Below, piece by piece: positions 44,349 to 60,516 of a DNA stretch of 64,000 nt; within the stretch, counting starts at the first letter, position 1; each line of letters begins with the position of its first letter. The position numbers and the translations under genes are program-made. The DNA lies in assembly GCA_910574345.1 (NCBI GenBank), contig CAJSZV010000010.1:1-64000 (forward strand), given 5' to 3'. Under the pieces are notes generated by a model, which had not been told where the DNA came from, searched no databases, and saw only the letters and a list, made by a program, of their open reading frames with translations. The stretch is from Clostridiaceae bacterium (GTDB lineage Bacteria > Bacillota > Clostridia > Lachnospirales > Lachnospiraceae).

Positions 44349-44410
44349 GTCTGCAGGAAGATATGGTGTTTTGCAACAATAAAGGGGAAGAAGGATAAGA
44401 AAATTTCATG

Positions 44411-44430
44411 GATTTTTAAAATCTGCGAAA
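44411..44430 (+). repeat. Left inverted repeat of a putative invertible segment
   Basis: gatttttaaaatctgcgaaa, exact reverse complement of 44762-44781. It has the shape of a tyrosine-recombinase core site: a conserved arm TCTGCGAAA, an asymmetric T5A4 spacer and a degenerate second arm. Confidence 0.75.
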
Positions 44431-44756: not shown

Positions 44757-44793
44757 GCAAATTTCGCAGATTTTAAAAATCTGCGAAATTTGC
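44757..44793. repeat. Perfect 37-nt palindrome with 18-bp arms, containing the right inverted repeat
   Basis: GCAAATTTCGCAGATTTT, a single central A, and the exact reverse complement. No T-run follows, so it is not an obvious terminator. Its inner part 44762-44781 is the exact inverted partner of 44411-44430. The spacer T4A5 reads T5A4 in reverse, matching the left site only in inverted orientation. Confidence 0.85.
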
Positions 44794-44858: not shown

Positions 44859-45707
44859 ATGGCAGTAAATCAAAATTCTAATAAATGGATTAATAGATTT
44901 ATTACCAGTCAGGTTATACAAAGAGGACTGGATGAGCGAACTGCTAAGGCATACAGACTGGACTTGGAACACCTGTATCAATGGCTGGAACTGCAATATT
45001 CTTTTGGAAAAGAAGAATTGGCGAAAAAAATTGAAGCTTATCTGGAGTATCTTTCATCAGACAAAAAACACCGTCCATCTACTATATGCAGAAAACAGAG
45101 AGTATTTGGATACTACCTTTCCTATTTGGCCTCACAGGGAATGATAGAGGGAACGGATACAATAAAGCACGTGAATATCCGAAATGAGGAACATAGAAGG
45201 GTACTGCTTAACAAGACGGAGATTGACAGATTTTTTCAGGCGATTTCCCAGGAATATATGGATTTGGAAAGTGATTTTCGAAAAAGAGTATGTCTTAGAG
45301 ATCAGGTGATGATGGGACTTCTTTTTTACCATGGGATTGAAGTCAGCGAGTTACTGAGGATGAAAACCAGGGACTATAATCAAAAGACAGCTGTTCTTAC
45401 GATCGAGAAGAAAAATGGAAAAAATTTTTCGGATTATTTATTTTCCCGAAGACTCCAGAGACAGATGGAGGAATGGATAGCAAAACACACATATTTTGAA
45501 CATGGAGAAGGATATGACGACTACATGTTTTTATCGAAACTGGGAAGGCCGCTTTCCATGAAAATGGTAATAATAATTTTTAATAAATACCGGGATATGG
45601 CGGGAATAACCAAAGAAGCTACCCCAAAAGATTTAAAATACAGTATGAAAACATATGCACGGGAATTAATGGTGGAGATATGCAGTCAGGAAGGAAGGGG
45701 CAGATAA
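44859..45707 (+). CDS. Tyrosine-recombinase-like protein lacking catalytic residues
   Basis: A 282-residue protein with the two-domain plan of phage-type integrases. The N-terminal SAM-like part is LDERTAKAYRLDLEHLYQWL (24-43). The catalytic-domain region is DQVMMGLLFYHGIEVSELLRMKTRD (148-172). Where active enzymes read GLRxSEL, this has GIEVSEL, so the first catalytic Arg is Glu161. The HxxRH motif reads KDLKYS (257-262), and the chain ends without the LGH...Y nucleophile block. It is therefore probably inactive for strand cleavage. As first gene of the glycan operon and close to the inverted repeats, it may bind those sites as a regulator, or be a relic. AGGAGG lies upstream. Confidence 0.8.
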   Translation: MAVNQNSNKWINRFITSQVIQRGLDERTAKAYRLDLEHLYQWLELQYSFGKEELAKKIEAYLEYLSSDKKHRPSTICRKQRVFGYYLSYLASQGMIEGTDTIKHVNIRNEEHRRVLLNKTEIDRFFQAISQEYMDLESDFRKRVCLRDQVMMGLLFYHGIEVSELLRMKTRDYNQKTAVLTIEKKNGKNFSDYLFSRRLQRQMEEWIAKHTYFEHGEGYDDYMFLSKLGRPLSMKMVIIIFNKYRDMAGITKEATPKDLKYSMKTYARELMVEICSQEGRGR

Positions 45708-45708
45708 T

Positions 45709-46530
45709 ATGAATGATCTGGTATCAATTATTACCCCGACATTTAACAGCGAAAATTATATTGAAAAAACAATTGAGTCAGTCAGGGAACAGATATATCA
45801 AAATTGGGAGATGATCATCGTTGACGACTGCTCAGATGATGCGACCTGTCTTATTGTAGAAAAAGCATCTGAGTGTGATAAGCGTATTCATTTGCTGAGA
45901 CAGGAGGAGAATAAAGGAGCTGCAGAGGCGAGAAACAGAGCCTTACAGTATTCTTCCGGCAGATTTATTGCATATTTAGATGCAGATGATATTTGGATGA
46001 AGGATAAACTTCAAAAACAAGTGACGTTTATGATTGAAAGCAAGTGCGGATTTTCCTGTGTTTCTTATGAAGTGATAAATGATATGGGAAAACCTTTAAA
46101 TAAAAAAGTGCATATGCTGCAAAAAGTCGATTATCTTGGCTTTTTAACTAACAATCTCCTTCAAACAGTGGGAATTATGGTGGACACAGAATTGATTGAT
46201 AAAAAATATCTGATGATGCCAGACCTTAGAAGACGACAAGATGCGGCCACCTGGCTTCAGATTTTGAAAGCCGGATATGAATGCTATGGGATGGAAGAAG
46301 TCTTGGCTCAGTATCGAAGAACCAGTCATTCTTTGTCCAGCAACAAGCTGAAAGCTGTAAAAGGTATCTGGTTTTTATACAGAAAAGTAGAAAAGCTTTC
46401 TTTCCCTTTCAGCTGTTACTGCTTTATAAGATATGCTGTTCTTGCTGTCTGGAAGAGAATATATATTGGCAGGAGAGAAAAATATGAATTTACTGATGTT
46501 TACAAAATATTACCCATTTGGAAAAGGTGA
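45709..46530 (+). CDS. Family 2 glycosyltransferase
   Basis: A 273-residue GT-A-fold enzyme. It begins LVSIITPTFNSENYIEKTIESV, with EMIIVDDCSDD as nucleotide-binding strand and AYLDADDIW as the DxD-like metal site (about 92-96). The QDAATWLQILK segment corresponds to the catalytic (Q/R)xxRW-like loop region of bacterial GT2. No membrane helix is clear except a hydrophobic stretch near 240. The sugar donor is unknown. It starts 1 nt after the recombinase-like gene and overlaps the next gene by 47 nt. Confidence 0.92.
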   Translation: MNDLVSIITPTFNSENYIEKTIESVREQIYQNWEMIIVDDCSDDATCLIVEKASECDKRIHLLRQEENKGAAEARNRALQYSSGRFIAYLDADDIWMKDKLQKQVTFMIESKCGFSCVSYEVINDMGKPLNKKVHMLQKVDYLGFLTNNLLQTVGIMVDTELIDKKYLMMPDLRRRQDAATWLQILKAGYECYGMEEVLAQYRRTSHSLSSNKLKAVKGIWFLYRKVEKLSFPFSCYCFIRYAVLAVWKRIYIGRREKYEFTDVYKILPIWKR

Positions 46531-47713
46531 GGCATTTATCGAAAATGAGATAGAAACAGCATCGGAATATTTTGAAAATATCGTAATCATTGCATGTGAA
46601 GTGGGAATAAAGGAGGATGTTGTAAGAAAACTCCCTCAAAATGTAAATGCGTTTAAAGTGCCCAGAGGGTCAAAAGTAAAAAATATCTTATGTGGACTAA
46701 GATATCTTTTTTCTGCTGATGAGGTATTTAATTCCGAAAAAACAGAATGCCGAGGATTGATTCAGAAGATTTTTTTGGCATATTTTGAGAAAAAAAGTCG
46801 TGCAATTTATGATTATATTGTTGATAAAGGTTATACCGATAATGTTTATGGAAAACCATATGCCATTTATAGCTATTGGCTGTTTGTAACTGCAAGGGTC
46901 GGATTGTTGATTGCAGAGGGGAATAAACCTGTATATAAGTTCACCAGGGCTCACAGATATGATCTTTATCAGGAAAAAAACCGATTAAACTATCTTCCTT
47001 ATCGTAGATTGTTTCTTCAGGAATATGAAAATGTATTTCCTTGCTCAAACCATGGAAGCCAGTATTTGATAAAAGCTTTTGCCGCTTTTGAAGATCATAT
47101 AAAAACTGCTTTTTTAGGAACGAAAGATTATGGACTTTCCAGGGAAAGCCGAGACGGAGCTTTTCGAATCGTAAGCTGTTCCAGAATCGAGCCTGTAAAA
47201 AGAATACACAGAATTATCGAAGCACTTTCCTTACTGAAAGCTGACAACAGAAGAATTGAGTGGATTCATATGGGAGGAGGAAGCAAATTGGAAAAAATCA
47301 GGAAAAAGGCAGAGGCAGAGCTGCATGGTATAACTTGTACATTTACAGGAGCAGTTCCAAACTCCAAGGTTTTGGAGATCTATAGAAATTCGCCTGTGGA
47401 TCTGTTCATTAATGTTAGCAGCAGCGAAGGACTGCCGGTGTCTATTATGGAAGCCATCAGCTTTGGAATCCCTGTTATAGCAACAGACGTTGGCGGAACA
47501 TCAGAAATCGTCATTCACGGATTAACGGGATTCTTAATACCGTCTGAATTTACAAATGAGGAGCTTGCCAGGACAATTAAAAGAATGTATGAAAACAAAG
47601 ACACTCTCATAAGCCGCAGGGCATGCAGGGAATACTGGGAACAGCATTTTCAGGCAGATAGGAATTACCATAAGATGTATGATTATCTGAGCAGAAATTA
47701 TCATTTACAATAG
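46484..47713 (+). CDS. Family 4 (GT-B) glycosyltransferase
   Basis: A 409-residue retaining glycosyltransferase. It starts MNLLMFTKYYPFGKGEAFIENEI. The C-terminal Rossmann domain carries the GT4 signatures FRIVSCSRIEPVKRIHRIIEAL, HMGGGSKLEKI and VSSSEGLPVSIMEAISFGIPVIATDVGGTSEIV, whose ExxxxxxxxGxP(V)ATxxGG motif binds the donor. The start at 46484 follows CAGGAGAG within the previous gene; longer in-frame starts lack a site. Donor and acceptor are unknown. Confidence 0.92.
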   Translation: MNLLMFTKYYPFGKGEAFIENEIETASEYFENIVIIACEVGIKEDVVRKLPQNVNAFKVPRGSKVKNILCGLRYLFSADEVFNSEKTECRGLIQKIFLAYFEKKSRAIYDYIVDKGYTDNVYGKPYAIYSYWLFVTARVGLLIAEGNKPVYKFTRAHRYDLYQEKNRLNYLPYRRLFLQEYENVFPCSNHGSQYLIKAFAAFEDHIKTAFLGTKDYGLSRESRDGAFRIVSCSRIEPVKRIHRIIEALSLLKADNRRIEWIHMGGGSKLEKIRKKAEAELHGITCTFTGAVPNSKVLEIYRNSPVDLFINVSSSEGLPVSIMEAISFGIPVIATDVGGTSEIVIHGLTGFLIPSEFTNEELARTIKRMYENKDTLISRRACREYWEQHFQADRNYHKMYDYLSRNYHLQ

Positions 47714-47730
47714 ATATCGGAGAAATACAT

Positions 47731-48681
47731 ATGAATGTAAGAGGAAAAGCAGCTTTGATAAGCCGCTGGGTAGGTATGATTACCGGTAAAAATACCTTGG
47801 CCATTGATCAGAAAAGAGGGGGATTATATAAAAAAGACAAGATAGCCGGTTATTATAATGATTTGACTGGAAAAGTCAATAAAGAAACGATTCTTGACGA
47901 TGGTGGAATTGCAATGAACATAATTGAGGGAAATAAAAGAGTCTATTTTCCTATCAGTATTTTTCAATATGCACTGGGACTGTGGGATTTGTATTTAAAA
48001 GAAGAAAGTGAAGCCATACGTTCCTCCTTTCTCAATCACTGCAGATGGATAGTTGAGAATCAAAGATCAGATGGTTCCTGGGACTGCTTTGGCCCAATAG
48101 GATATTCAAACTATACAGTTTCATCAATGGGGCAGGGGGAGGCTGTTTCTGTATTGGCCAGGGCATATATATTGACAAAGGAAAACATTTGGATAGATGC
48201 TGCAGGAAAAGCCATGAGTTTTATGCTGAGAACTATAGGGGATGGGGGGACTCTTTTGATTGAAGGAGAAAATTATTATTTTGAAGAATATCCGGATCAA
48301 AGAGGGGAAAAAAGAAGTGTACTGAACGGCTGGATTTTTTCTTTATTTGGCTTATATGATTATCTTCTTTTAACAGATGACAGCATGGTACGACAGCTGT
48401 TTTGGAACAGTGTTATCACTATGGAAAAGGATTTGAAAGATTATGATTTGGGATATTGGTCCTGTTACGACAAAAGCGGACGAATAGCAAGTCCCGCATA
48501 TCACAGGCTACACATAGAATTATTGTATGTTATGGCGGATTTGACCGGGAGAGAGGGGTTCCTTACTTATGCAGAAAGATGGTCTGATTACCAAAGAAAA
48601 AAAGCAAACAAAGGAAGGGCTGTGATAAAGAAGATAATACAAAAACTTTCGGAAAGCCAGGAAGGAGTTCTTATTAAATAA
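47731..48681 (+). CDS. Putative D-glucuronyl C5-epimerase
   Basis: A 316-residue protein matching the C-terminal catalytic domain of glucuronyl C5-epimerases (PF06662). Key segments are YFPISIFQYALGLWDLYL (72-89), SMGQGEAVSVLARAYILT (132-149), FEEYPDQ (184-190), SVLNGWIFSLFGLYDYLLL (196-214), DYDLGYWSCYDKSG (237-250) and SPAYHRLHIELLYVMADLTG (254-273). These enzymes turn D-glucuronate into L-iduronate within a polymer. No signal peptide is seen, so it may act on lipid-linked repeat units in the cytoplasm, unlike eukaryotic Golgi enzymes. The neighbours are glycosyltransferases. Confidence 0.85.
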   Translation: MNVRGKAALISRWVGMITGKNTLAIDQKRGGLYKKDKIAGYYNDLTGKVNKETILDDGGIAMNIIEGNKRVYFPISIFQYALGLWDLYLKEESEAIRSSFLNHCRWIVENQRSDGSWDCFGPIGYSNYTVSSMGQGEAVSVLARAYILTKENIWIDAAGKAMSFMLRTIGDGGTLLIEGENYYFEEYPDQRGEKRSVLNGWIFSLFGLYDYLLLTDDSMVRQLFWNSVITMEKDLKDYDLGYWSCYDKSGRIASPAYHRLHIELLYVMADLTGREGFLTYAERWSDYQRKKANKGRAVIKKIIQKLSESQEGVLIK

Positions 48682-48682
48682 A

Positions 48683-49729
48683 ATGGAAACAGAGAATACA
48701 CTGTCTGTGATTATTCCGGTTTACAATGCAAAACCGGAGCTTCTTGAAAGGTGTATAATAAGTATCGTGGAAGGCATCAATATAAATCGGGAAATGATCG
48801 TCATAGATGACGGAAGCGATAAAATAAAATCAAAAGAATATAAAAATATCTGTGATAATTATGGAGGTCATTATTTCCGTCAGGAGAATCAAGGGGTTTC
48901 CTGTGCAAGAAATCAGGGGATTTGTCTGGCTCAGGGAAATATCATTATGTTTGCAGATGCAGATGATAGAATTATAAAAGCAGATTACTCAGGCTGGATT
49001 CACTGGATGATAGAGAACCAGGTTGATGTTCTGAGCGGATGTCTTTGTAAGAAATATGGAGACGGGAGAACAGAAGAAAAGAGGATTCACAAGGAGGGGG
49101 TGCTGTTTTTTTATAAAAATGAAGATTTAATTCAGCTTATACTGACAAGGAATCATTATGATTATCCGGAACTTAAAGATGTAGAGATTGCGGGACCTTG
49201 CTGTAAACTAATTAAAAAAAGTATGCTTGGCCAGACAAAGTTTCCGTCTGATATTAGGATTGGAGAGGATATGGTTTTCAATCTTGAATTATTAAAGAAA
49301 AATGCAAGATATGTGCTTGTTAATGAGCTATGGTATGAATATTATATCAGTTGTGAAACGGCTATGAATAAATATTATACCGGTCTGGAAGAACGGTATT
49401 TCGCTTCTATAAACAGGATTGCAGGGATGGATCTGACGAAGACAGAAGAGGAATATCTGGCTTGCCGTGCATTATATCACTATATTAAGATAATAAAAAT
49501 TTATGTCTCTCATAAAAAAAAGGAAGCAGACGCATGTATCAGCTTTATAAAAAAAATGAGCTGCAAAGAGGAACTGAGACAATGCTGGAAAAGAATAAAA
49601 TTAAGAAAATGCACGTTAGAAACAAAATATAAGATAGCTCTGGCTTTAACAAAGAGCAGACAAAATTATCTTTTATATCAAATGATTAAACTATCAATAA
49701 ATAAAGAGAATAAAAGGAGCAGAGAGTAA
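48683..49729 (+). CDS. Family 2 glycosyltransferase
   Basis: A 348-residue GT-A enzyme: LSVIIPVYNAKPELLERCI, REMIVIDDGSDK, ENQGVSCARNQGI and NIIMFADADDRI with the DxDD metal site (about 94-97). A later segment, DIRIGEDMVFNLELLK, has the ED motif that normally provides the catalytic base. The C-terminal 100 residues are basic and helical. It starts 1 nt after the epimerase stop, so translation is probably coupled. Confidence 0.92.
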   Translation: METENTLSVIIPVYNAKPELLERCIISIVEGININREMIVIDDGSDKIKSKEYKNICDNYGGHYFRQENQGVSCARNQGICLAQGNIIMFADADDRIIKADYSGWIHWMIENQVDVLSGCLCKKYGDGRTEEKRIHKEGVLFFYKNEDLIQLILTRNHYDYPELKDVEIAGPCCKLIKKSMLGQTKFPSDIRIGEDMVFNLELLKKNARYVLVNELWYEYYISCETAMNKYYTGLEERYFASINRIAGMDLTKTEEEYLACRALYHYIKIIKIYVSHKKKEADACISFIKKMSCKEELRQCWKRIKLRKCTLETKYKIALALTKSRQNYLLYQMIKLSINKENKRSRE

Positions 49730-49735
49730 AGAAAA

Positions 49736-51163
49736 ATGACAGTCATCTCTTTTATGCTGATGTTCTATGTTATATATAGCTGGATCAGACAAAGAACCCT
49801 TGACAATTTTATAATACATATTATTGCTCTGGATATTATTTTACATACATGTGTGAGCATTGGATACTTTCTGAGATTTAAATTTGATTTTGATTATTTT
49901 TATTTCACAGATATATTGATATTAGTTTACGGCATATTGAAATTTGTTTTAAAGAAAAGAATAAACAGCAGGATTTTTCTGAATTATCTTTTTTATATAG
50001 GAATTGTTATAATCGGTTTGGGATGTCTTATGATCTTTCCATATAAAGAGATGATGGTAACGAATGGAACGAACTGGGATCTGTATATTCGGGGAACCGA
50101 CTACTTAAGGGAAGCCGGATTTGCAGCCGAAAATATAGTGTTTTTTTTAAAAACATTTGTCATAGCTACGTCTGTTGCATTTTTGAAGATGTTTATCAAT
50201 ATGGAGATGTGGGGAGAAATTCTGGATAAAATGTATTACTGGGTAAAAGTGATTTTATCAGTTGGTATTTTTGAAGCAATATCCAGGTATATATTCGGAA
50301 GTGATATTTTTAATACAATTACAATCCGTTTGTTTGGACTGACCAAATCAACGTATGATGTTTCCATGGTTCGCGGAAACGGCTATATGCTCCAGGGGCT
50401 GACCAGAGAAGGTTCCGCCTATGCATATTCATTATCTATTTTATGTGTTTTTTTATATGTTAGAAGCTGCTGTCATAAAAAAGTTCTTCCATGGATGTAT
50501 ACGGCGTTAGGATTGATGATATTATCCATGTCAATTACTGCGGTGTACTGTATCGTATTTCTGTTGATCATGAAGGCGGTGTTTGATCATTATATGTTTA
50601 TGGAAAAGTGCAGCAGATTTTCAAGAAATCGTTTCCTGGTAGTTGCTGCAGTTATTCTCGGCGGGTTTTTAACAGGATTTCTTCTGAAAAGAAAGTCTGA
50701 CAGCATAAACTATATGTTGTGGCGGATTGCAGATGCATACAAAACCCTGGAGATGGTTTTTAACGGAACGTGGAGGAACTTTACAGGCTGGTATGGTTCA
50801 AATCAGTTAAGGCTGATTAGCACATGGGAGACATTAAAGCTTACAGTCCATCGTCCTTTCTTCGGATTTGGAATAGGCGCAACGACGTCGCACAGCAATC
50901 TGGCCATATTATTGGCAGAGATCGGATATGGGGGCGCCTTTTGCTGGTACAGATTTTATTTTGGCAATAAGGAAATACGGATGAAAAAAAGAGAAAAAAG
51001 ATTTACGATATCTATTATCATGTGCTACATAGCAATGAATCTATTAGCCGGATTTGAAAGACTGATCATATCAGTCGGGAATTTATTTATTTTTATTATG
51101 ATCCTTAAAGCGATAGAGGAAAGAAGGAATTATGAAGCTGTCCATAATCACCCCCGTGTATAA
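49736..51163 (+). CDS. Wzy-like polysaccharide polymerase
   Basis: A 475-residue integral membrane protein with about 11-12 predicted helices and a long loop in the second half (about 330-380), FNGTWRNFTGWYGSNQLRLISTW, followed by RPFFGFGIGATTSHSNLAILLAEIGYGG. The RPxxGxGxG...H(N/S) segment is typical of O-antigen ligase/polymerase (Wzy_C-like) proteins. It would join repeat units outside the membrane. Sequence conservation in this class is low, so the call rests on topology, loop motif and context. It overlaps the next gene by 32 nt. Confidence 0.8.
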   Translation: MTVISFMLMFYVIYSWIRQRTLDNFIIHIIALDIILHTCVSIGYFLRFKFDFDYFYFTDILILVYGILKFVLKKRINSRIFLNYLFYIGIVIIGLGCLMIFPYKEMMVTNGTNWDLYIRGTDYLREAGFAAENIVFFLKTFVIATSVAFLKMFINMEMWGEILDKMYYWVKVILSVGIFEAISRYIFGSDIFNTITIRLFGLTKSTYDVSMVRGNGYMLQGLTREGSAYAYSLSILCVFLYVRSCCHKKVLPWMYTALGLMILSMSITAVYCIVFLLIMKAVFDHYMFMEKCSRFSRNRFLVVAAVILGGFLTGFLLKRKSDSINYMLWRIADAYKTLEMVFNGTWRNFTGWYGSNQLRLISTWETLKLTVHRPFFGFGIGATTSHSNLAILLAEIGYGGAFCWYRFYFGNKEIRMKKREKRFTISIIMCYIAMNLLAGFERLIISVGNLFIFIMILKAIEERRNYEAVHNHPRV

Positions 51164-52004
51164 TGGTGAGAAATCGATTGAAAAGACAATAATGAGTATT
51201 CTGGCCCAGAATTATGATGGATTGGAGTATATAATTGTTGACGGAGGTTCTACAGACGGAACTTTGGAGATTATAAAAAAATATGAAGCTTTTATTTCGA
51301 ATATTATATCGGAAAAAGATGAAGGAATTGCAGATGCCTATAATAAAGGTATTAAACTCGCAGGGGGCGAGCTGATCGGAATTATCGCGTCTGATGATGA
51401 ACTGACCAGAGGTGCATTAAAAGCTCTTGCAGAACAGTATGACGGATGCAGCGATGTGGTTTCCGGAAGCCTTATAAGGAAAAATCAGGAAAGGTGTAAA
51501 CTGGTTAAATCAGATAAAAATCTGGAACAACTGAGAACGCATACTTCCATTGCCCATCCAGCAACATTCATAAGGAAAGATGCATATGAGAAATACGGGC
51601 TGTATTCTTTAAAATACCACTGCGCCATGGACAGGGAACTGCTTTTAAGATATTTTGTATGCGGTGCATCTTTTCAAATTATTGAATATCCATTGACTAT
51701 TTTTAATGTAGGAGGAATCAGCACGTATAATCCGGTAAAATCTGCTTACCCGGAGGATCGGCAGATATCTATAGAATATGGAATGGGGAAAATACATGCG
51801 GGAATACTTTTCTGGAAAGCAGTGTCCCATTTTTATATATGCAAAGGCCTGAAAGACATAATGGCGAATATACCTGCTTTCAGATTTTTTTATCAGAAAT
51901 ATAATAACAGCAAAGTATTCATGAGAGAAGAAGAGATAATGTGTTTTGTGAACGAATGGAATGGTGACAATGATGAAGGATGTTTGTCTGATTATAATTT
52001 TTAA
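51132..52004 (+). CDS. Family 2 glycosyltransferase
   Basis: A 290-residue GT-A enzyme: LSIITPVYNGEKSIEKTIMSI, LEYIIVDGGSTDGTLEIIKKY, EKDEGIADAYNKGI and GELIGIIASDDELT (DD metal motif near 90-91). The IAHPATFIRKDAYEKYG segment is typical of WcaA-like transferases of capsule clusters. The start lies within the end of the polymerase gene, and the 3' end overlaps the next gene by 35 nt. Confidence 0.92.
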   Translation: MKLSIITPVYNGEKSIEKTIMSILAQNYDGLEYIIVDGGSTDGTLEIIKKYEAFISNIISEKDEGIADAYNKGIKLAGGELIGIIASDDELTRGALKALAEQYDGCSDVVSGSLIRKNQERCKLVKSDKNLEQLRTHTSIAHPATFIRKDAYEKYGLYSLKYHCAMDRELLLRYFVCGASFQIIEYPLTIFNVGGISTYNPVKSAYPEDRQISIEYGMGKIHAGILFWKAVSHFYICKGLKDIMANIPAFRFFYQKYNNSKVFMREEEIMCFVNEWNGDNDEGCLSDYNF

Positions 52005-52896
52005 TCACAGGTATGATTCCAATATAAAGAAGATCAAAGAGCTTTATGGCAGGCGGTTTTCAGATATCTATATATTGATGCCGTTTTTTGAGGGGGGGGG
52101 TGAAACAGAAGGAGTGCATGTGATAACGGTATATGATTCTTCTTATACATTCAGCGGTTATATAGCGCAGGCATATGAATTGATACCGAAAAAGTATAAG
52201 CACTATTTTTTCATCGGAGACGATTTGGTTTTAAATCCTTCTATCAATGAAAATAATGTATGGGAGTATTTTGAAGTCAAGGACAAAGACTCTTATATTA
52301 AGGAAATCATACCATTGTGTAAAGCATCAGGCGTCAAAGCAGAACGGCTCTATAAACAGATTTTGCAGCCATTCAGAAAAAATAACGGAACAGAGTGGAG
52401 GGAACAGATACCAGGCAGATCAGAGGCATTTCAGTTTTGCAGAGACAAGGGAATTGATGCTGAGCAAAGAATCAGTCTGAAATGGATGCTGCAGAGACAG
52501 CTGAAGGAAGGAAAGAGGATCGGAGCGTTGTTCCGGCTTTTATGGTGTATTCCATGTCTTTTTCTTAATCATGGGCTTTCTATGCCCTATCCACTTTTTA
52601 AAGGATATAGTGATCTCTTGATTATAAGCAGCAGGGATATGAAAAGCCTATGTCATTACTTTGGTGTATTTGCAGCCATGGGAGTGTTTGTGGAGATAGC
52701 AATACCTACGGCAATCAGGATGGTATGTTCTGATATTAAAACAGAGGATATGATAAATAAGCGGGGGGTGGAATACTGGTCCTGTGAAAAGAAATGGTTT
52801 GAAGATAAGTATGGCTGCTCCTTAGACAAGCTGTTTGCCGCGTGGGATGAAGAGGTGCTTTATTATCATCCGGTTAAGCTGTCCAAGTGGCAGTAA
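51970..52896 (+). CDS. Putative glycosyltransferase-like protein with a G9 tract
   Basis: About 308 residues; the start is one of two adjacent ATG codons (51970 or 51973). CLIIIFNHRYDSNIKKIKELYG, IYILMPFF and YFFIGDDLVLNPSINENN suggest a GT-A-like fold with a GDD metal motif, but I cannot assign a family. A run of nine G (52092-52100) encodes EGGG near residue 41-44. A one-base slip there would end translation early, so expression may switch on and off. It is in frame in this sequence. It overlaps the upstream glycosyltransferase gene. Confidence 0.65.
   Translation: MMKDVCLIIIFNHRYDSNIKKIKELYGRRFSDIYILMPFFEGGGETEGVHVITVYDSSYTFSGYIAQAYELIPKKYKHYFFIGDDLVLNPSINENNVWEYFEVKDKDSYIKEIIPLCKASGVKAERLYKQILQPFRKNNGTEWREQIPGRSEAFQFCRDKGIDAEQRISLKWMLQRQLKEGKRIGALFRLLWCIPCLFLNHGLSMPYPLFKGYSDLLIISSRDMKSLCHYFGVFAAMGVFVEIAIPTAIRMVCSDIKTEDMINKRGVEYWSCEKKWFEDKYGCSLDKLFAAWDEEVLYYHPVKLSKWQ
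52092..52100 (+). repeat. Homopolymeric G9 tract in coding sequence
   Basis: Nine consecutive G within gag-ggg-ggg-ggt, early in the gene at 51970. Such tracts in bacterial surface-glycan genes change length by slipped-strand mispairing. Confidence 0.9.
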
Positions 52897-52941
52897 TATT
52901 TGATAACAGGATTGGAAAATAAATGAAAAGGAAGACTATGA

Positions 52942-53286
52942 ATGAAAGAATATACAGCAAAAGAGATAGCTTGGGTTATTCGGCAGGAAATAGACAGGTG
53001 GCATAAGGAGAGCGCAAACAGACCGGAGGATTATATCATTGTAACAGATGAGATCAGAAGAATCAGACCCTTAAACTCACACAGAGATGATCCGTTGAAG
53101 GTAATTCAGGAGCTTGTCATCACCAATACGGAGATGTGGCACGAGGAGGATAAGGTGAGAAGTATGAAGGATGCGGTGGTTTTAAAGGCAATTAGGAATA
53201 TCAATCCCCTAAATCAGCACAGGAATGATCTCATCGAAGAAATTGACGAGATATTCCTTCATAATACCAAAAAGGAGATCAGATAA
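52942..53286 (+). CDS. Small protein with an internal RPLN-HRxD repeat, unknown function
   Basis: A 114-residue charged, helical protein. Two halves resemble each other: DEIRRIRPLNSHRDDPLKVIQEL...NT (about 37-63) and KAIRNINPLNQHRNDLIEEIDEIFLHNT (about 81-108). The same N-x-(H/Q)RNDLxxE(I/L) pattern recurs in the next protein (NILKNQRNDLTEEL). I know no family for it. Its place between glycosyltransferases and sugar-activation genes suggests an accessory or regulatory role. AAAGGAAG precedes the ATG. Confidence 0.7.
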   Translation: MKEYTAKEIAWVIRQEIDRWHKESANRPEDYIIVTDEIRRIRPLNSHRDDPLKVIQELVITNTEMWHEEDKVRSMKDAVVLKAIRNINPLNQHRNDLIEEIDEIFLHNTKKEIR

Positions 53287-53287
53287 T

Positions 53288-53548
53288 ATGGAAACCATAG
53301 GAAGTCTTATTGATAAACTGAGTATTAATGAATTGAAAATTTATCATATGACGGAGCAGAGGGAACGGGAAGATGTAGAAGGGGATTTTAGAGAGGACTG
53401 TGACATGCGGCTCAATATCTTAAAAAACCAGAGAAATGATCTGACGGAAGAACTGCAGAGTTTGATGGAAGATGTCCGGTCAGGAAAAAAGCAGCTAAAG
53501 CTTTATCGTCAGATGAAAATGTATAACGAAAAGAAATTTAAGGATTAA
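53288..53548 (+). CDS. Small coiled-coil protein, unknown function
   Basis: An 86-residue protein beginning METIGSLIDKLSINELKIYHMT, strongly charged and predicted helical throughout, with KNQRNDLTEELQSLMEDVRSGKKQLKLY likely forming a coiled coil. It shares the QRNDLxxEL pattern with its upstream neighbour, whose stop lies 1 nt before this start. AAGGAGAT is placed correctly; a longer in-frame version from 53225 would overlap the previous gene. Small proteins of this shape occur in capsule clusters of Firmicutes, but no role is known to me. Confidence 0.7.
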   Translation: METIGSLIDKLSINELKIYHMTEQREREDVEGDFREDCDMRLNILKNQRNDLTEELQSLMEDVRSGKKQLKLYRQMKMYNEKKFKD

Positions 53549-53578
53549 ATGGGCAAGGAGTTTTACGGAGGAGGAGAA

Positions 53579-55081
53579 ATGCTGGAATATATTATTGTTC
53601 AGGCAGGAGGAAAAGGTACCAGGATGGAGACGCTGACCAGGAATAAACCCAAGGCTTTAGTACCAGTTAATAACCTGCCGATGATCTTTCATTTGTTTCG
53701 TAAATATCCAGATAAAAAATACATCATTATTGGAGATTATCAATATGGCGTGCTCATAAACTATCTCAAAGCGTTTGCAGAGACAGATTACAGGATGGTT
53801 CGTGCAACGGGGCATACAGGTACTTGTGCAGGATTGTCAGAGGCTCTTTCCTATATACCAGATAACCAGAGATTTATGCTTATCTGGTGCGATCTGGTTC
53901 TTCCAAAGGAGTATGAGTTTCCAGAGTCGGAAAAAGATATCATAGGAATTGCCAAGGATTTTCCTTGCCGCTGGAAATATGAGAACGGAACGTTTACTGA
54001 AGAAATGAGCAGAGGCCAGGGGGTTGCCGGACATTTCATTTTTCATGATAAATCAGTTCTGGCAGAAGTTCCCGCAGAGGGGGAATTGGTGAGATGGATG
54101 CAGAGTCAGGGGATAACCTTTGAAGAACAAGAACTATGGCATACCCGTGAATACGGTTTGTATAGTGAATGGGACAAGCTTCCCAAGACGAGATGCCGCC
54201 CCTTTAACAGAGTGCATGTGGAAGGAGACAAATTCTACAAAGAACCTATTGACGAACAGGGAAGACAGCTGGCTGTTCGGGAAAGAGCCTGGTATAGAAA
54301 GCTGAAAGGCATTTGCTTTGAGAATATTCCGGCAATCTATGATTACGAACCTCTTTGTATGGAACGTGTAGAAGGAAAAAACCTTTATGAATATAGGGAT
54401 CTTCCTTTGGATTTAAAAAAAAGGATTTTGACCCAGATCATTGAATGCTTGAAAAAGGTTCATGAACTAGGGAGTATTCCGGCGGACAGGGACAGCTATT
54501 ACGATGCCTACATAGCCAAAACCTTTGAACGGCTGAAAAAAGTCCGCCGATTGGTACCTTTTGCGGGAGATAGGTATGTAACGGTTAACGGAAAGCGATG
54601 TCGGAATGTGTTTTTTCACAGAGAAGAGCTGGAGAATATGGTGATGGCATATATGCCAGAAGAATTCAAACTGATCCATGGAGATTGTACTTTTAGCAAC
54701 ATGATGCTGAAAAAGGACACAGTTCCCATGCTCATCGATCCGAGAGGATATTTTGGAAAAACTGAGATATTTGGAGACGTTGCTTATGACTGGGTAAAAT
54801 TATATTATTCCTTATATAGTAATTATGACCAGTTCAATTTAAAAAGATTTGAACTAGTTATCAAAGAAAAGGAAGTGACAATGAAAGTCGACTCTAACCA
54901 GTGGGAAGAGCTGGAAGGAGACTTTTTTCGCCTGCTGGAAGGGGAAGTTACCAGACACCAGATGAAACTGTATCTGGCAGTCGTCTGGTTAAGCCTGACT
55001 ACATACGCATGGGAAGATTATGATTCTATATGTGGGGCGTTCTATAATGGGTTATGGTATCTGGAGGATGTTTTGTCATGA
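53579..55081 (+). CDS. Nucleotidyltransferase-kinase fusion for sugar or polyol activation
   Basis: A 500-residue two-domain protein. The N-terminal half (1-230) is a sugar-1-phosphate nucleotidyltransferase-like fold: IIVQAGGKGTRMETLTRNKPKALVPV, with MLIWCDLVL as a later metal-site strand. The C-terminal half (about 250-500) is an aminoglycoside phosphotransferase/choline kinase-like domain, with FKLIHGDCTFSNMML near 363-377 (HGDxxxxN) and MLIDPRGYFG near 383-392. It could phosphorylate a sugar or polyol and link it to a nucleotide. With the SIS isomerase and HAD phosphatase that follow, this forms a complete activation module. The start at 53579 follows GGAGGAGG. Confidence 0.8.
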   Translation: MLEYIIVQAGGKGTRMETLTRNKPKALVPVNNLPMIFHLFRKYPDKKYIIIGDYQYGVLINYLKAFAETDYRMVRATGHTGTCAGLSEALSYIPDNQRFMLIWCDLVLPKEYEFPESEKDIIGIAKDFPCRWKYENGTFTEEMSRGQGVAGHFIFHDKSVLAEVPAEGELVRWMQSQGITFEEQELWHTREYGLYSEWDKLPKTRCRPFNRVHVEGDKFYKEPIDEQGRQLAVRERAWYRKLKGICFENIPAIYDYEPLCMERVEGKNLYEYRDLPLDLKKRILTQIIECLKKVHELGSIPADRDSYYDAYIAKTFERLKKVRRLVPFAGDRYVTVNGKRCRNVFFHREELENMVMAYMPEEFKLIHGDCTFSNMMLKKDTVPMLIDPRGYFGKTEIFGDVAYDWVKLYYSLYSNYDQFNLKRFELVIKEKEVTMKVDSNQWEELEGDFFRLLEGEVTRHQMKLYLAVVWLSLTTYAWEDYDSICGAFYNGLWYLEDVLS

Positions 55082-55689
55082 ATAAAGAAGATAAAAGCAG
55101 ATTGGATTATTTTGAGGAAGATGAAAAGATTATCAGTCATGCGTTGAAATCCATAAGAATGGAGGAAATGAAGTCCCTGATAACTGAGTGTGAACAGACT
55201 TTGAAAGCGGGACATAAAATTGTGGTGTCAGGACTTGGCAAAAATGTGCCTATTTGTGATAAGTTTGTGGGAACTATGCTCAGTCTGGGCCTGGATGCAG
55301 GTTTTCTTCATACGAATTCAGCAGTACATGGCGATATGGGGATGGTACATTCGGGTGATTTGGTAATTATATTGACCAAAAGCGGGGCCACAGCCGAATC
55401 CGTGTATCTGGTGAGCCTGTTAAAGAAACGGCAGGGGGTCACCCTTTGGCTCCTGAGTTTTCAAGAGCACAGCAGATTGGCGGACTGTATGGAGAATAAG
55501 CTGATCATTCATCTTGAACATGAAGGAGATTTGTGGAATATTGTCCCTAATAATTCGACCACCCTGAACCTGATTGTATTGCAGAAAGTGGCCATGGAAC
55601 TTTCCAAACGGCTGGGGCTGGAACTTGAAAAAGATTTTAAACCAAACCATCCGGGGGGAGCGATAGGGGAAACGTTGAAACATGAATAA
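55078..55689 (+). CDS. SIS-domain sugar phosphate isomerase
   Basis: A 203-residue SIS protein: GHKIVVSGLGKNVPICDKFVGTMLSLG, NSAVHGDMGMVHSGDLVIILTKSGATAE and the end FKPNHPGGAIGETL. This resembles the catalytic domain of arabinose-5-phosphate isomerases (KdsD/GutQ) without the CBS pair, and more distantly GmhA. It would make an aldose or ketose phosphate for the adjacent kinase/nucleotidyltransferase. Its ATG overlaps the previous TGA (ATGA). The HAD gene start overlaps its end by 8 nt. Confidence 0.88.
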   Translation: MNKEDKSRLDYFEEDEKIISHALKSIRMEEMKSLITECEQTLKAGHKIVVSGLGKNVPICDKFVGTMLSLGLDAGFLHTNSAVHGDMGMVHSGDLVIILTKSGATAESVYLVSLLKKRQGVTLWLLSFQEHSRLADCMENKLIIHLEHEGDLWNIVPNNSTTLNLIVLQKVAMELSKRLGLELEKDFKPNHPGGAIGETLKHE

Positions 55690-56077
55690 TTTAGAAAGTA
55701 ACAAAGGCAGGATTGTTCTGTCCTCTCTGGGGCATACATGGATTCTGGATCTGGACGGAACGATAGTGAAGCACAACGGATACAAAACAGATGGAGAAGA
55801 TTCTTTTCTGGAGGGCGCCCTTGAGTTTCTTAAGGGTATTCCAGATAAAGACATGGTGGTTTTTCTGACCTCCAGGACAGAGGAATGGAGAAATGTAACT
55901 GTAGAGTTTCTTGAAAAGCATCGGGTGAGATTTGACCATATTATCTTTAACGCACCCTACGGCGAACGAATTCTGATTAATGATGATAAGCCGGGAGGAT
56001 TAAAGACGAGTATAGGAATATGCGGCAAAAGAGATAAGTTTCCCATAAGAAAGATTATAGAAAAGGAAGAAGTGTAG
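55682..56077 (+). CDS. Small HAD-family phosphatase
   Basis: A 131-residue cap-less HAD protein. Motif I is TWILDLDGTIVKH (residues 19-31), with the nucleophile Asp in DLDGT. Motif II is VVFLTSRTEEW. The acidic motif IV is ILINDDKPGG. It is of the size of GmhB/KdsC-like or polynucleotide-phosphatase-like members. With the SIS isomerase and kinase-nucleotidyltransferase it probably removes a phosphate from a sugar bisphosphate intermediate. Confidence 0.85.
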   Translation: MNNLESNKGRIVLSSLGHTWILDLDGTIVKHNGYKTDGEDSFLEGALEFLKGIPDKDMVVFLTSRTEEWRNVTVEFLEKHRVRFDHIIFNAPYGERILINDDKPGGLKTSIGICGKRDKFPIRKIIEKEEV

Positions 56078-56094
56078 GAAGGAAAAGCAGTTTT

Positions 56095-57111
56095 ATGAAA
56101 ATTACCGGTATTTACAGTACGAGAAACTATAACACTTGGCCGTCCTGGCATATTGTTTTTGAGTATGAAGATAAGTTTGCTGAGTGTCTGGGCATAAAAA
56201 TTACGCGGGGGGGGGTAAGAAGGTACTGGAACAGCATACAATACCGGGCATTCAAAATATTTCCAGAGTTAAAAAAACTGACAAGATACAGAATGAGGGG
56301 AACGAATTGTCAACTGGTATTCATTATGTCGGCAGGAGAATTATGGGCTTATCCAAAACGTAATACAATACCGATTCTTCTTGATACGCCTATGAGTTCT
56401 GCAGAATATGTTTTAGAGTCAACAAAGGAACTGCCGATCTTTTGGGTGACTGCATTTGATTATTATAAAAGGCTGAAGGAACTGGAACCAGATTCCAATG
56501 TTAAATATATTCCCCTGGCGATTACAGATATCTATAAATTAGATGAATATCCGGATAAAAAGATTGATGTGATTCAGTTTGGACGTAAGAATGATACACT
56601 GCATAATTGGATGCTTGCTTATTGTAAAAAATATCCGGGCACGGAATATGTATATCAAACCGAAGACGGTTCTCTGACCTATATATCTACTACACGTGGA
56701 AATATAGGGAGATTTGACACCCGCAGGAACTATTTTGAGATGCTGAAAGCGTCAAAAATCAGTTTGGTTTCCACTCCCTGCTTTGAAGGTGAACGCAAAT
56801 CAGTTTTTGGAAACATGGATTTTGTGACCCCTAGATTTTATGAAAGTGCGGTGAATTACTGCTATATGATTGGAAGATATACGGAAAATGACGAGACTAC
56901 AATGCTCGGACTGGAGGATGTCTGCGATAATGTATCTGATTGCCATGTCTTTGAAGAATTGGTATATGAGTATCTTATGGATCCGGGTTTTAAGAAAAAG
57001 AATGTGTTTGATAATTTTATTGCCCGAAATGTGGTTTCGGCCAGGGTAAGGGAAGTAAATAATTGTATGTTTAATTTAAGAGAGAAAGACGGAAGAGGAA
57101 GCCGGCGGTGA
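56095..57111 (+). CDS. Putative GT-B glycosyltransferase with a G9 tract
   Basis: A 338-residue protein. VFIMSAGELWAYPKRNTIPILLDTPMSS and KKIDVIQFGRKNDTLHNWMLAY resemble group-1-like transferases. The C-terminal SLVSTPCFEGERKSVFGNMDFVTPRFYESAVNYCYMIGRY matches the donor-binding end of such enzymes (family 1 or PF13524-like). The assignment is moderate. Nine G at 56207-56215 encode RGG near residues 38-40, so a one-base slip removes almost the whole protein. It is in frame here. It overlaps the next gene by 4 nt (GTGA). Confidence 0.7.
   Translation: MKITGIYSTRNYNTWPSWHIVFEYEDKFAECLGIKITRGGVRRYWNSIQYRAFKIFPELKKLTRYRMRGTNCQLVFIMSAGELWAYPKRNTIPILLDTPMSSAEYVLESTKELPIFWVTAFDYYKRLKELEPDSNVKYIPLAITDIYKLDEYPDKKIDVIQFGRKNDTLHNWMLAYCKKYPGTEYVYQTEDGSLTYISTTRGNIGRFDTRRNYFEMLKASKISLVSTPCFEGERKSVFGNMDFVTPRFYESAVNYCYMIGRYTENDETTMLGLEDVCDNVSDCHVFEELVYEYLMDPGFKKKNVFDNFIARNVVSARVREVNNCMFNLREKDGRGSRR
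56207..56215 (+). repeat. Homopolymeric G9 tract in coding sequence
   Basis: Nine consecutive G within cgg-ggg-ggg-gta, about 115 nt after the start codon of the gene at 56095. Confidence 0.9.
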
Positions 57112-58049
57112 ATCTGAGGATGATAATTAAAAAAATATTGAAATATTGCGTTCTTCCAGCTGTTTCTTTAATAGTTAAGATATATGCAAAAGTTCAAAAA
57201 AAAACTTTGATTTTATTTGCATTTTCAGGGCTTGGGGATATGTGCTATTCCTTTGCCTTTTTAGATTTTCTTAAGGAAACCTGGGGGGGGGGGTACAGAA
57301 TTGTCGTTTTTACAAAATCTTATTTGGCAGCGTTAGCTTCTCATTATGAGTGTGTTGATGAAGTCAAAATATTGGGGGATTGCAAAATAAAAGCGGTCAG
57401 GGCATTGTGGAAATCTGATAAATATAAAGAAATTTTTAATGATGGACTCAATGGCTCTCCAATATTCTATTGCGATAACTTAAATAAAGAAGGATTTGAG
57501 ATCTTAAGGATTCCTTCAATAAATTATATGGATATACAAAGATATGTGTATTATGGGGCAGATAAGAATGAAAGAATAACCATTCCGGTAATTCCTCGAA
57601 TAAGCTTACAGAAGTTTGCGGATATGAATTTTGAGAAGGCGGTTATTATTAACACATATTCTGTGTCTATGAATATTGATAAAAGTATATTTGATGATAT
57701 TGTTGCAATTTTAAAAAGAAATCATATGGAAGTGTATACAAATGTTACCGGAAAAGGGAAGGCATTGGAGGAAACAATACCATTGACTTGTACCATAGAG
57801 GAATTGTACTGTCTCACCAAGCGTGTAAAGTTTATGATAAGCATTCGATCAGGTCTTTTGGATTTTCTGCAGGGAAATGGAGCTGCATATATAGTTTTGT
57901 ACAATGATAAAACGGAATGGGATAAAAATTTTCGTAAGGCATATGATATGGAAGGATGGCAATCGGAAAGCCGTATTTATCAGTACAATATAGGAGAAAA
58001 AAGTGAATATGAAAAACTGATTGATATACTGTGCAAAGCGTCTGATTGA
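57108..58049 (+). CDS. Heptosyltransferase-like (GT9-type) protein with a G11 tract
   Basis: A 313-residue protein with a GTG start that overlaps the previous stop. LILFAFSGLGDMCYSFAFLDFL resembles the GLGDxL start of GT9/ADP-heptose transferase-like enzymes. KAVIINTYSVSMNIDKSIFDDIV and CTIEELYCLTKRVKFMISIRSGLLDFLQ form the second Rossmann domain. Eleven G (57283-57293) encode the WGGG segment at about residues 59-62. It is paralogous to the following gene at 58090, which lacks the tract. Function probably switches by slippage; it is in frame here. Confidence 0.7.
   Translation: MNLRMIIKKILKYCVLPAVSLIVKIYAKVQKKTLILFAFSGLGDMCYSFAFLDFLKETWGGGYRIVVFTKSYLAALASHYECVDEVKILGDCKIKAVRALWKSDKYKEIFNDGLNGSPIFYCDNLNKEGFEILRIPSINYMDIQRYVYYGADKNERITIPVIPRISLQKFADMNFEKAVIINTYSVSMNIDKSIFDDIVAILKRNHMEVYTNVTGKGKALEETIPLTCTIEELYCLTKRVKFMISIRSGLLDFLQGNGAAYIVLYNDKTEWDKNFRKAYDMEGWQSESRIYQYNIGEKSEYEKLIDILCKASD
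57283..57293 (+). repeat. Homopolymeric G11 tract in coding sequence
   Basis: Eleven consecutive G within tgg-ggg-ggg-ggg-tac. It is the longest G run I find in the window. Confidence 0.9.
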
Positions 58050-58089
58050 AAACCAAGAGTATATGTCTGGAGGATGAGGTTAAAAGTTA

Positions 58090-59004
58090 ATGAAAGAAAT
58101 GTTAAAAGACATATATTTTAAAAGTATATGGAGGAAAATAAAGCGGCTTGAAAATGAATACAAAGATTTCATTTTTATTTTTACATTTGCCGGAATAGGA
58201 GACTTATGCTATTCTTTTGCCTTTTTAGAGGAATTAAAAAAGAGAGAAAAGAAAAAAATCATGGTATTCACGAAAAGGTATCTGTATAGGGCTGTATCTT
58301 ATTATGAAGCTGTTGATATAGTGAAGATTCTCTCTGACAGGGACTCCGTGTTTGTGGAATCTTTTTTGAAGGCGAAAAGGAACTGGAAATATTTTAATGA
58401 TGGGGTTAATGGATCGCCTTTCTATTATTTTTCACACTGGAATCGATTTGGATGGGAAATACTTCGTATTCCAAATGTCAATTATATGGATGTGCAAAGG
58501 TATATCTTGTATAATTTTGATGATACGGCTGAACTGACACTCCCGGCGGTGCCGGATATATCATTGGAAAGATTTGATGATATTGACTATAAGAGGACAA
58601 TTATTATTAATCCTTACTCGAATTTTTTGAAAATTACTGACAGCCGCATTTTTGATACATTAACAGATTACTTAAGTTTACAGGGTTTTATAGTTTATAC
58701 AAATACGACTAAAAACCAGACTGCTTTGAAAGGAAGCAGGCGTCTGGAGTGCTCCCTTGAAGAGTTATATGGACTGTGTAAACGTGTAAAATTAGTAGCC
58801 AGCCTGAGAAGCGGAATTATTGATTTGATGATTCATAGCGGAGGGAATTTTATTGTTTTATATCCGGATGAGACTTATTGGGACAAAATATTCAGGCAGG
58901 CTTATACCCTGACAGCATGGCGTACAAAAAATAAAATATATGAATATTTGTTAAAAGAAGAAGATGAGATTATGCTAAAGGCAGAGGAGATAATGGTTAA
59001 TTGA
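58090..59004 (+). CDS. Heptosyltransferase-like (GT9-type) protein, paralogue without G tract
   Basis: A 304-residue paralogue of the preceding protein. Shared segments are the IFTFAGIGDLCYSFAFLEEL start, FNDGVNGSPFYY, ILRIPNVNYMDVQRYILY, RTIIINPYSNFLKI and CSLEELYGLCKRVKLVASLRSGIIDLM. At the place of the WGGG segment it has KREKKKIMVFTK, encoded by A-rich codons. The two therefore arose by duplication, and only one carries the slippage tract. Donor and acceptor are unknown. Confidence 0.72.
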   Translation: MKEMLKDIYFKSIWRKIKRLENEYKDFIFIFTFAGIGDLCYSFAFLEELKKREKKKIMVFTKRYLYRAVSYYEAVDIVKILSDRDSVFVESFLKAKRNWKYFNDGVNGSPFYYFSHWNRFGWEILRIPNVNYMDVQRYILYNFDDTAELTLPAVPDISLERFDDIDYKRTIIINPYSNFLKITDSRIFDTLTDYLSLQGFIVYTNTTKNQTALKGSRRLECSLEELYGLCKRVKLVASLRSGIIDLMIHSGGNFIVLYPDETYWDKIFRQAYTLTAWRTKNKIYEYLLKEEDEIMLKAEEIMVN

Positions 59005-59040
59005 TGCTTTTCAAATGCGGATACAGAGGTGTTGGTAAAT

Positions 59041-60516
59041 ATGATAATAGTAATAACTAGGAATTCTCTGAAAACAAATATGGTTTTCAATATGATAAAA
59101 GGAATTATGGGAGTAATTATGCCATTAATTACGTTTCCGTATATTTCCAGGACTTTAGGAGTCGAAAATGTGGGAAAAGTCAGCTTTGTTAATTCAGTAA
59201 TTTCCTATTTCGGACTGTTAGCTGCCCTTGGGATCAGGATGTATACAGTCAGTGCGGGCTCTAAATATCGAAATGATCATGAAAAAATGAACCGGTTTGC
59301 GAATTCTGTTTTTACCATTAATGTTATATTTACAGTGAACGCATATGTCTTACTGTTTCTGCTTGTGGCAACCATACCGAAATTTCAAGAATATATGGTG
59401 TTGTTTGCAATTTTGTCGCTGCAGATTATTTTGACAACCATAGGTGTGGATTGGATTAATGTTATTTATGAAGATTATTTTTATATTACAGTCAGGACAA
59501 TTATGTTTAATCTTTTACAGCTGATCTTGTTATTTCTGTTTGTCCGGACAGAAGGGGATTTGATTAAGTATATGGTGATATCCGTCTTCTGTTCAAATGG
59601 AATGAATCTTATCAATCATTTTTATGTTAAAAAATACTGTCGGCCTCATTTGACTGTTCATGTGGATTGGGAGCTGCATATGAAACCAATTTTGCTTTTG
59701 TTTGCAACTCAGGCTATGATTACCATATATGTTTCTTCGGATACAACGATTCTGGGATTTTTGTGTGGTGATGTGCCTGTTGGAATCTATCATGTTTCAG
59801 TTAAAATTTATACGATAGTCAAGACGGTAGCTGCATCTATGGTAGCTGTCAGCATTCCACGTCTGTCAAATCTGTATAGTCGGGGAAAGCGTGAAGAATT
59901 TTCTGCAACTGCTCAGGATACCTATTATACAATGTTGACAATCTGCATACCGGCAATGCTAGGGCTTCTTCTTCTGAGGAGAGAAATTATAGAGTTGATT
60001 TCCGGTCCGGAATACGTGAAGGCAGTATACTCCCTGGCAATATTAAGTATTGCTATGTTTTTCTGTATAGGAGCTTATTTCTGGGGACAGGCTATTTTAG
60101 TTTCTGTCGGTCAGGAGAGAATTCTGCTTAAAGTCACGGTTCTGAGTGCTGCGGTAAATATCGTGTTTAATTTTATGCTGATCCCGTACTGGAAGGAAAA
60201 TGCAGCTGCTTTCACAACCTTGATCGCGGAGATGCTGACATTTGCAATATGCAGATATTATGGGAAGCAATATGTACAATTTACAGGATGCATCAGGATA
60301 TGGGCTAAGATTTTTTGCGGCTGTATGGGGATTATAGTCATAAAAGCGCTGCTGACAGCTGTGGGATTGACGGGGATTTGGTATGTGATATTCATGATAT
60401 TGTGCTCAGCTGCTGTTTATTTTTTGATTGAAATTATTGTAAACAATGAGGTACTGAAAAGCATGGTCCCAAAGTCATATTTTAAGAATTACTCAAAGGA
60501 CAATTGGACAAAATAG
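59041..60516 (+). CDS. Wzx-like oligosaccharide flippase
   Basis: A 491-residue membrane protein with about 12-14 helices of the MOP/PST superfamily. Characteristic is the first part, NMIKGIMGVIMPLITFPYISRTLGVENVGKVSFVNSVISYFGLLAALGI. It also has LFATQAMITIYVSSDTTILGFLCGDVPVGIYHVSVKI. It moves the lipid-linked repeat unit across the membrane for the Wzy-type polymerase at 49736. The start at 59041 follows AGAGGTG; TTG 59029 is an alternative. It is the last gene of the glycan cluster. Confidence 0.92.
   Translation: MIIVITRNSLKTNMVFNMIKGIMGVIMPLITFPYISRTLGVENVGKVSFVNSVISYFGLLAALGIRMYTVSAGSKYRNDHEKMNRFANSVFTINVIFTVNAYVLLFLLVATIPKFQEYMVLFAILSLQIILTTIGVDWINVIYEDYFYITVRTIMFNLLQLILLFLFVRTEGDLIKYMVISVFCSNGMNLINHFYVKKYCRPHLTVHVDWELHMKPILLLFATQAMITIYVSSDTTILGFLCGDVPVGIYHVSVKIYTIVKTVAASMVAVSIPRLSNLYSRGKREEFSATAQDTYYTMLTICIPAMLGLLLLRREIIELISGPEYVKAVYSLAILSIAMFFCIGAYFWGQAILVSVGQERILLKVTVLSAAVNIVFNFMLIPYWKENAAAFTTLIAEMLTFAICRYYGKQYVQFTGCIRIWAKIFCGCMGIIVIKALLTAVGLTGIWYVIFMILCSAAVYFLIEIIVNNEVLKSMVPKSYFKNYSKDNWTK

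Follow-up and report, generated by a model that had tools for sequence, protein, structure and literature searches.

The window analysed here comprises the first 64,000 nucleotides of contig CAJSZV010000010.1 (GenBank assembly GCA_910574345.1), from a member of the Lachnospiraceae, and the features of interest are three long poly-G tracts that lie within three genes, designated A, B and C, of a putative surface-glycan cluster. Runs are written below as base and length, such that G9 is a run of nine G and G9+ a run of nine or more. The features concerned are as follows.

51961-52896, forward strand: gene A, 311 amino acids (aa), without a family match
52092-52100, forward strand: tract 1, G9, in gene A at codons 44-47, in frame, next triplet TGA
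56095-57111, forward strand: gene B, 338 aa, without a family match
56207-56215, forward strand: tract 2, G9, in gene B at codons 38-41, in frame, next triplet TAA
57108-58049, forward strand: gene C, 313 aa, weakly GT9-like
57283-57293, forward strand: tract 3, G11, in gene C at codons 59-62, in frame
58090-59004, forward strand: paralogue of gene C without a tract, sharing 43% identity with it
44859-60516, forward strand: the glycan cluster, co-oriented, with gaps of at most 45 nucleotides (nt) and several overlaps

Poly-G tracts in a surface-glycan cluster

The tracts are preceded by 43 (gene A), 37 (gene B) and 58 (gene C) whole codons. In the alternative frames, the number of codons from the tract to a stop is 0 and 6 for gene A, 48 and 0 for gene B, and 17 and 13 for gene C. 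As these frames stop early, most of the protein would be lost whenever the tract length changes by a number other than a multiple of three. The tract lengths also reach the length of at least eight G at which slippage is known in Campylobacter.

Runs of at least seven G in the window are limited to three G7, two G9 and one G11, and the longest runs of the other bases are C5, A9 and T8. Markov chains trained on the window itself, with long G runs shortened beforehand, predicted 0.08, 0.26 and 0.18 G9+ runs per 64 kb at orders 2, 3 and 4, respectively, against the three observed, and three or more such runs arose in only one of 600 simulations of the window. A preliminary description of this DNA had placed the three runs at these positions, in frame and near the 5' ends of their genes, with no further G9+ run in the window, and had considered chance a poor explanation. 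The run positions match exactly, the homopolymer count found no other such run, and both the 37-58 codons ahead of each tract and the Markov expectations agree with the remaining statements.

The Gly residues encoded by the tracts were compared with the corresponding positions in related proteins. The tract site TWGGGY of gene C corresponds to EKKK plus a two-residue gap in the adjoining paralogue, and no conserved Gly was found at the tract when gene C was aligned with nine relatives. The sole relative of gene B (32% identity), detected in Mucilaginibacter by a scan of genome contigs, does not share the tract glycines, though the region is poorly aligned and lies beside a gap. Conserved Gly codons with mixed third positions, which the preliminary description had named as the pattern that would speak against switching, were thus found neither for gene C (nine relatives) nor for gene B (one). 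These alignments suggest that the run is not required by the protein family in the case of gene C, nor in that of gene B as judged against one relative. GGG accounts for 255 of the 1357 Gly codons in the open reading frames (ORFs) of the window.

The identity of the three gene products was also examined. Searches of Pfam and NCBIfam found no model matching gene A, B or C, and no relevant relative of A or B was found among solved structures. A profile built from gene C and its nine relatives matched one solved GT9 protein weakly (3tov, E 0.0066). Against Pfam, none of these ten sequences matches a GT9 model, while two match Methyltransf_14 and one matches LIAS_N (E up to 0.1). The three genes had been called glycosyltransferase-like, and this description fits their neighbours; the label is weak for gene C, with its marginal GT9 profile match, and contextual for genes A and B, which have no family match. 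No homologue of gene A or of gene B was found in 249 other genomes of the family, and the relatives of gene C are all distant, the adjoining paralogue excepted.

The cluster has a GC content of 37.5%, compared with 47.5% for positions 1-44858. It begins with a recombinase-like ORF, followed by genes for a GT2, a GT1, a glucuronyl C5-epimerase-like protein, a GT2, a membrane protein and a GT2, and then by gene A. Downstream of gene A are two small ORFs and genes for a nucleotidyltransferase-kinase, an SIS protein (KpsF-like, below the cut-off of that model) and a HAD-like protein (also below cut-off), then genes B and C, the paralogue of C and a flippase gene. This content indicates that the region is a surface-glycan cluster. 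On contig 1 of the same genome (L042, L009) lies another glycan cluster, which includes a homologue of the nucleotidyltransferase-kinase gene (53549-55081 in the window), a distant homologue of gene C and G8 and G9 runs of its own. Further features were found at the upstream edge of the cluster in the window.

44401-44430 and 44762-44791: two related near-palindromic elements, with 30-nt arms, 90% complementary, 331 nt apart
44859-45707, forward strand: tyrosine-recombinase-like ORF heading the cluster (Phage_integrase, E 4.8e-12)

The two elements are also direct repeats of each other. None of the promoter-like sites listed for the region lies between them, and the recombinase-like ORF has no relative in the other genomic loci compared. 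The repeats upstream of this ORF may represent an invertible or regulatory segment.

Long G runs in the rest of the genome and in the family

The 5.6-Mb genome contains 20 distinct G9+ runs (15 G9, four G10 and one G11), and groups of them were found at 92-137 kb of contig 1 (five runs), at 27-38 kb of contig 8 (three) and in the window (three). When 20 runs were placed at random in the genome, some three fell within 5.2 kb in 59 of 20000 trials. Thirteen of the runs are located within a gene on the G strand, where frames were read by eye together with Pfam results. In addition to A, B and C, the genes are a short-chain dehydrogenase gene, two hexapeptide-repeat (acetyltransferase-like) genes, two acyltransferase-3 genes, a GNAT-like gene, two GT2-GtrA glycosyltransferase genes and two genes without a match above cut-off. 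By Pfam, seven of the 13 runs are in glycosyl-, acyl- or acetyltransferase-like genes, a figure for which no control gene set was counted.

The reading frame continues through the run in eight of these 13 cases and is broken at the run in five, namely in both GT2-GtrA genes, one acyltransferase-3 gene and the two genes lacking a Pfam match above cut-off. The parts flanking the run are otherwise long and open. In the split GT2-GtrA genes, the N part matches positions 1-77 of the GT2 profile and the C part matches GtrA in another frame; in the split acyltransferase-3 gene, the N part spans positions 1-225 of the 326 in the profile. The two split GT2-GtrA genes are paralogues (41% identity between N parts and 38% between C parts) that carry the run at the same site, as G10 in one and G9 in the other. 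Homologues with an open frame are found in the same genome and in relatives G003, G014 and G020. No adjacent Gly residues occur at the site in four homologues (from contig 1 of the same genome, G003, G014 and G007), and the site DNA in three homologues has no G run longer than three; the match in G007 includes one TGA. The N and C parts are thus two portions of one gene, to which the run is an addition. Viral contigs yielded no match for gene C or for the C part of GT2-GtrA and plasmids yielded nothing, leaving no second allele from either collection. By the mechanical frame rule described below, a G8 run (L043:9887-9894) also separates long parts in different frames, and the switching set may therefore include runs of this length.

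Long G runs are common in relatives. The preliminary description had regarded the pattern as much less familiar in Lachnospiraceae, a view that calls for revision, as G9+ runs were found in 17 of the 26 genus genomes and in 184 of the 299 family genomes sampled, two counts that each include the own genome. In another genome of the same genus, Flagellin_N and Flagellin_C are encoded in different frames around a G10 run (L070:5472-5481), making this gene a candidate phase-variable flagellin gene on the basis of its sequence. A DUF1796 gene in the genus is split at a G12 run, its 3' part being without a match, and genes for a large surface protein (G11) and a polysaccharide lyase with choline-binding repeats (G10) consist of long parts in different frames.

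Frames around runs were then scored by a mechanical rule in 20 regions of the genus, 20 of relative G148, 16 of relative G236 and 20 each of relatives G101 and G323, which cover part of the runs listed for these relatives. Runs of G15 or longer (G17 in L061, G23 in L117 and G16 in L182) and runs less than 60 bases from the end of a locus were left out. The rule can call neighbouring genes broken, an error that the A-run and G6 controls share, and it scores the large surface protein and the polysaccharide lyase as through. Applied to the genome studied here, it gave 12 through, seven broken and one other, compared with the 13 in-gene runs and five split genes obtained by eye with Pfam.

For the own genome, the genus and relative G148 combined, 21 of 68 G9+ runs were broken, 37 through and 10 other. 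The corresponding figures (broken, through and other) in the same loci were 29, 212 and 52 for A7+ runs, 44, 532 and 81 for A6, and 6, 62 and 5 for G6, and G9+ runs split genes in excess of each of these controls (Fisher test, 5e-5 against A7+, 1e-8 against A6 and 4e-4 against G6). For the own genome alone, the values were 0.001 against A7+ and 0.0001 against A6. In three further genera (G236, G101 and G323), 13 of 58 G9+ runs were broken, 29 through and 16 other, with controls of 19, 81 and 34 (A7+), 1, 8 and 3 (G6), and 32, 295 and 62 (A6), the excess being significant against A6 (0.0005). In relative G101, 16 of 21 sampled runs are exactly G10, a distribution that is peaked rather than a decaying tail.

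Other arrangements were observed among the sampled runs. Several runs in relative G236 occur early in long ORFs whose products resemble surface proteins by eye. Neighbouring genes with runs at their 3' ends were found at L054 (362, 1362 and 2916), L060 (5116 and 6677) and L057 (2229 and 3425), where the contexts are alike in up to 26 of 30 flanking bases and the lengths differ (G9, G10 and G11). Runs of G16 or longer are located at contig ends in L061:1-17 and L117:6655-6677 and internally in L182:7435-7450 and in contigs 49 and 65 of relative G236; at least those at contig ends look like sequencing artefacts.

The sequence 3' of the long runs (L042-L073, L107-L126 and L145-L200) is also distinctive, T, mostly as part of TA, being far more frequent there than after short runs in several genera. 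In the own genome, the genus and relative G148, the base after the run is T in 46 of 68 cases for G9-G14 and in 587 of 3146 for G4-G5, and the next triplet is a stop in 20 of the same 68 and in 122 of the 3146. In the three further genera, TA follows 39 of 58 long runs compared with 75 of 1198 short runs, though this set partly overlaps the runs in which TA was first noticed and is not wholly independent. With a stop immediately 3' of the run, one OFF frame would be tight. Mutation rates at hotspots where a G run meets a T are given as lowest when the flanking base is A in PMC12344412, and TA may be a cold context for such a hotspot.

Runs of a second kind were detected in other genera of the family, at L147:1153-1162, L161:3033-3041, L162:3041-3051, L165:3000-3009 and L194:2959-2968. 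These five are flanked by a TTGACA-like hexamer on one side and a TAGAAT- or TATAAT-like one on the other, with a spacer of 18 or 19 including the run, in the arrangement TTGACA-N8/9-G9 to G11-TAGAAT or similar, with at most two mismatches in 12 positions, a figure without a chance control. The L162 and L165 runs precede ORFs of more than 960 codons that are open to the end of the sampled stretch and have no Pfam family. The same scan with up to four mismatches allowed found such promoter-like surroundings for none of the 20 runs in the own genome, six of 27 in the genus and four of 21 in relative G148, only one of which had two mismatches. By their position, the window runs belong to the coding type, as opposed to the candidate promoter-spacer kind in other genera.

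Probable slippage and the alternatives to it

The excess over chance, the location on the coding strand, the early stops in the alternative frames, the split genes elsewhere and the lack of conserved Gly (in gene C, and in gene B against one relative) make it very probable that the three window runs are simple-sequence contingency loci that vary by slippage, as the preliminary description had proposed. Under the proposed mechanism, a run would gain or lose G by slipped-strand mispairing during replication, and, unless the change is a multiple of three, the frame would shift some dozens of codons into the gene and a stop would follow within 0-48 codons. The protein would then be lost in that cell lineage until a further slip restores the frame. 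The products of genes A, B and C may act on a surface glycan, and independent switching of the three could yield up to eight surface-glycan combinations. As the start of gene C overlaps the stop of gene B, the B-off state may also lower C, and translation of C may depend on that of B. Tract length would be expected to vary in living populations.

If the runs merely encoded functionally required Gly, the choice of GGG codons being a matter of chance, the three would be expected in frame, and they are indeed read as Gly-Gly or Gly-Gly-Gly. However, the relatives of genes B and C described above do not conserve these residues, GGG makes up a minority of the Gly codons of the window, and equally long runs elsewhere sit in split genes, such that this explanation is scarcely credible. 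It is also very unlikely that the runs are neutral mutational by-products, without selected switching. T to G changes are frequent where a T comes directly after a G run, a hotspot described in PMC12344412, and the cluster is of low GC and perhaps acquired. However, growth of a run into T should deplete T, which is instead enriched 3' of long runs, and the T-to-G boundary hotspot is thus disfavoured as the sole cause. The share of in-gene runs in glycosyl-, acyl- or acetyltransferase-like genes (with the reservation given above) and the predominance of exactly G10 in relative G101, where no decaying series is seen, also speak against a by-product.

The split genes could instead reflect homopolymer errors of sequencing or assembly, or ordinary decay, and so be uninformative on switching. 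The genomes compared are mostly drafts, and artefact-like runs do occur at contig ends in L061 and L117, as do arrays inside contigs 49 and 65 of relative G236. However, A7+ runs split genes less often in the same loci, though not significantly so in the three further genera, the window tracts are internal to a contig of 189,710 bases, and apart from the break the split genes retain long open parts beside the run, making this source of the pattern very unlikely. Long homopolymers can cause transcriptional slippage in some bacteria, and slippage of RNA polymerase or the ribosome at the runs would produce a fixed mixture of full-length and truncated products without a change in the DNA, leaving split genes partly active. 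Switching at the DNA level would be expected to leave some genes in frame and others out of frame within one genome, a mixture that slippage of this type does not require. It is an unlikely alternative, if somewhat less so than the others, and can also act together with DNA slippage.

Several observations weigh against the runs being contingency loci. All three window genes are in the ON frame, and no change of length was seen at any tract, one genome per species having been compared. Seven of the 20 runs in the genome are not clearly within a gene, being located at gene starts (cbiD, a 1632-codon ORF and an apparent proS leader), in intergenic sequence or in short frames of unclear status. 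Compared with G6 in the own genome (0.075), and with A7+ (0.13) or G6 (0.41) in the three further genera, the surplus of split genes does not reach significance. Full-length mutS and mutL genes are also present, and mismatch repair would lower slippage rates. Campylobacter and Helicobacter are not known to possess this mismatch repair. Judged by gene content, its loss is rejected as the origin of the runs in the present genome, and if this genome switches, it does so with mutS and mutL present.

Relation to known systems and significance

The slippage proposed for the poly-G tracts of this glycan cluster is best compared with that in Campylobacter. According to PMC6321876, 53% of Campylobacter runs are of length 9 and 26% of length 10, most in-gene runs have G on the coding strand, and runs of at least eight G switch expression in the genes tested; cgtB/cj1139c is an example of a poly-G phase-variable glycan gene of C. 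jejuni named in PMC6437147. The present loci resemble those of C. jejuni in having coding-strand runs of G8-G11 in genes of a surface-glycan cluster, where frame would set ON or OFF, at several loci per genome and with lengths centred on 9-10. They differ in belonging to another lineage with mutS and mutL, in that switching is predicted here from sequence, and in the smaller number of in-gene runs at this length cut-off.

Other forms of phase variation offer partial parallels. In Neisseria porA, a poly-G run is located in the promoter spacer, like the candidate spacer runs in other genera of the family and unlike the window runs, which are within coding sequence. Gut commensals such as Bacteroides vary by inversion of DNA, which, like the switch proposed here, would diversify the surface glycans of a gut population, though by site-specific inversion rather than slippage at a mononucleotide run. 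PMC11868660 also mentions phase variation of this invertible type in gut commensals.

Among the matches listed in searches of titles and abstract openings in open-access PubMed Central, no report of poly-G phase variation in Lachnospiraceae or related Clostridia and no multi-locus poly-G set for the family was found. Outside pathogens, a phasome paper on commensal Neisseria is a known exception (PMC5953494). The mechanism is already known, and the lineage is one for which no description was found in this literature.

The loci described here are probably one sample of a family-wide phenomenon. A broader proposal, which is possible but tentative, is that members of the family, presumably gut Lachnospiraceae, have multi-locus poly-G phasomes nearly as large as those of Campylobacter, that glycans, flagellin and large surface proteins are subject in them to coding as well as promoter-spacer switching, and that the rule of G9-G11 followed by TA would reflect lineage-wide making or keeping of such runs despite intact mismatch-repair genes. 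With 20 long G runs and five split genes in this genome, and with such runs common in the family, the question can be tested directly outside the usual pathogens. If the proposal is true, one reference genome per species would give a false picture of which genes for surface glycans, flagellin and adhesin-like proteins are active, and resistance to phages, binding of antibodies and differences between strains may hinge on a tract length that short-read pipelines ignore.

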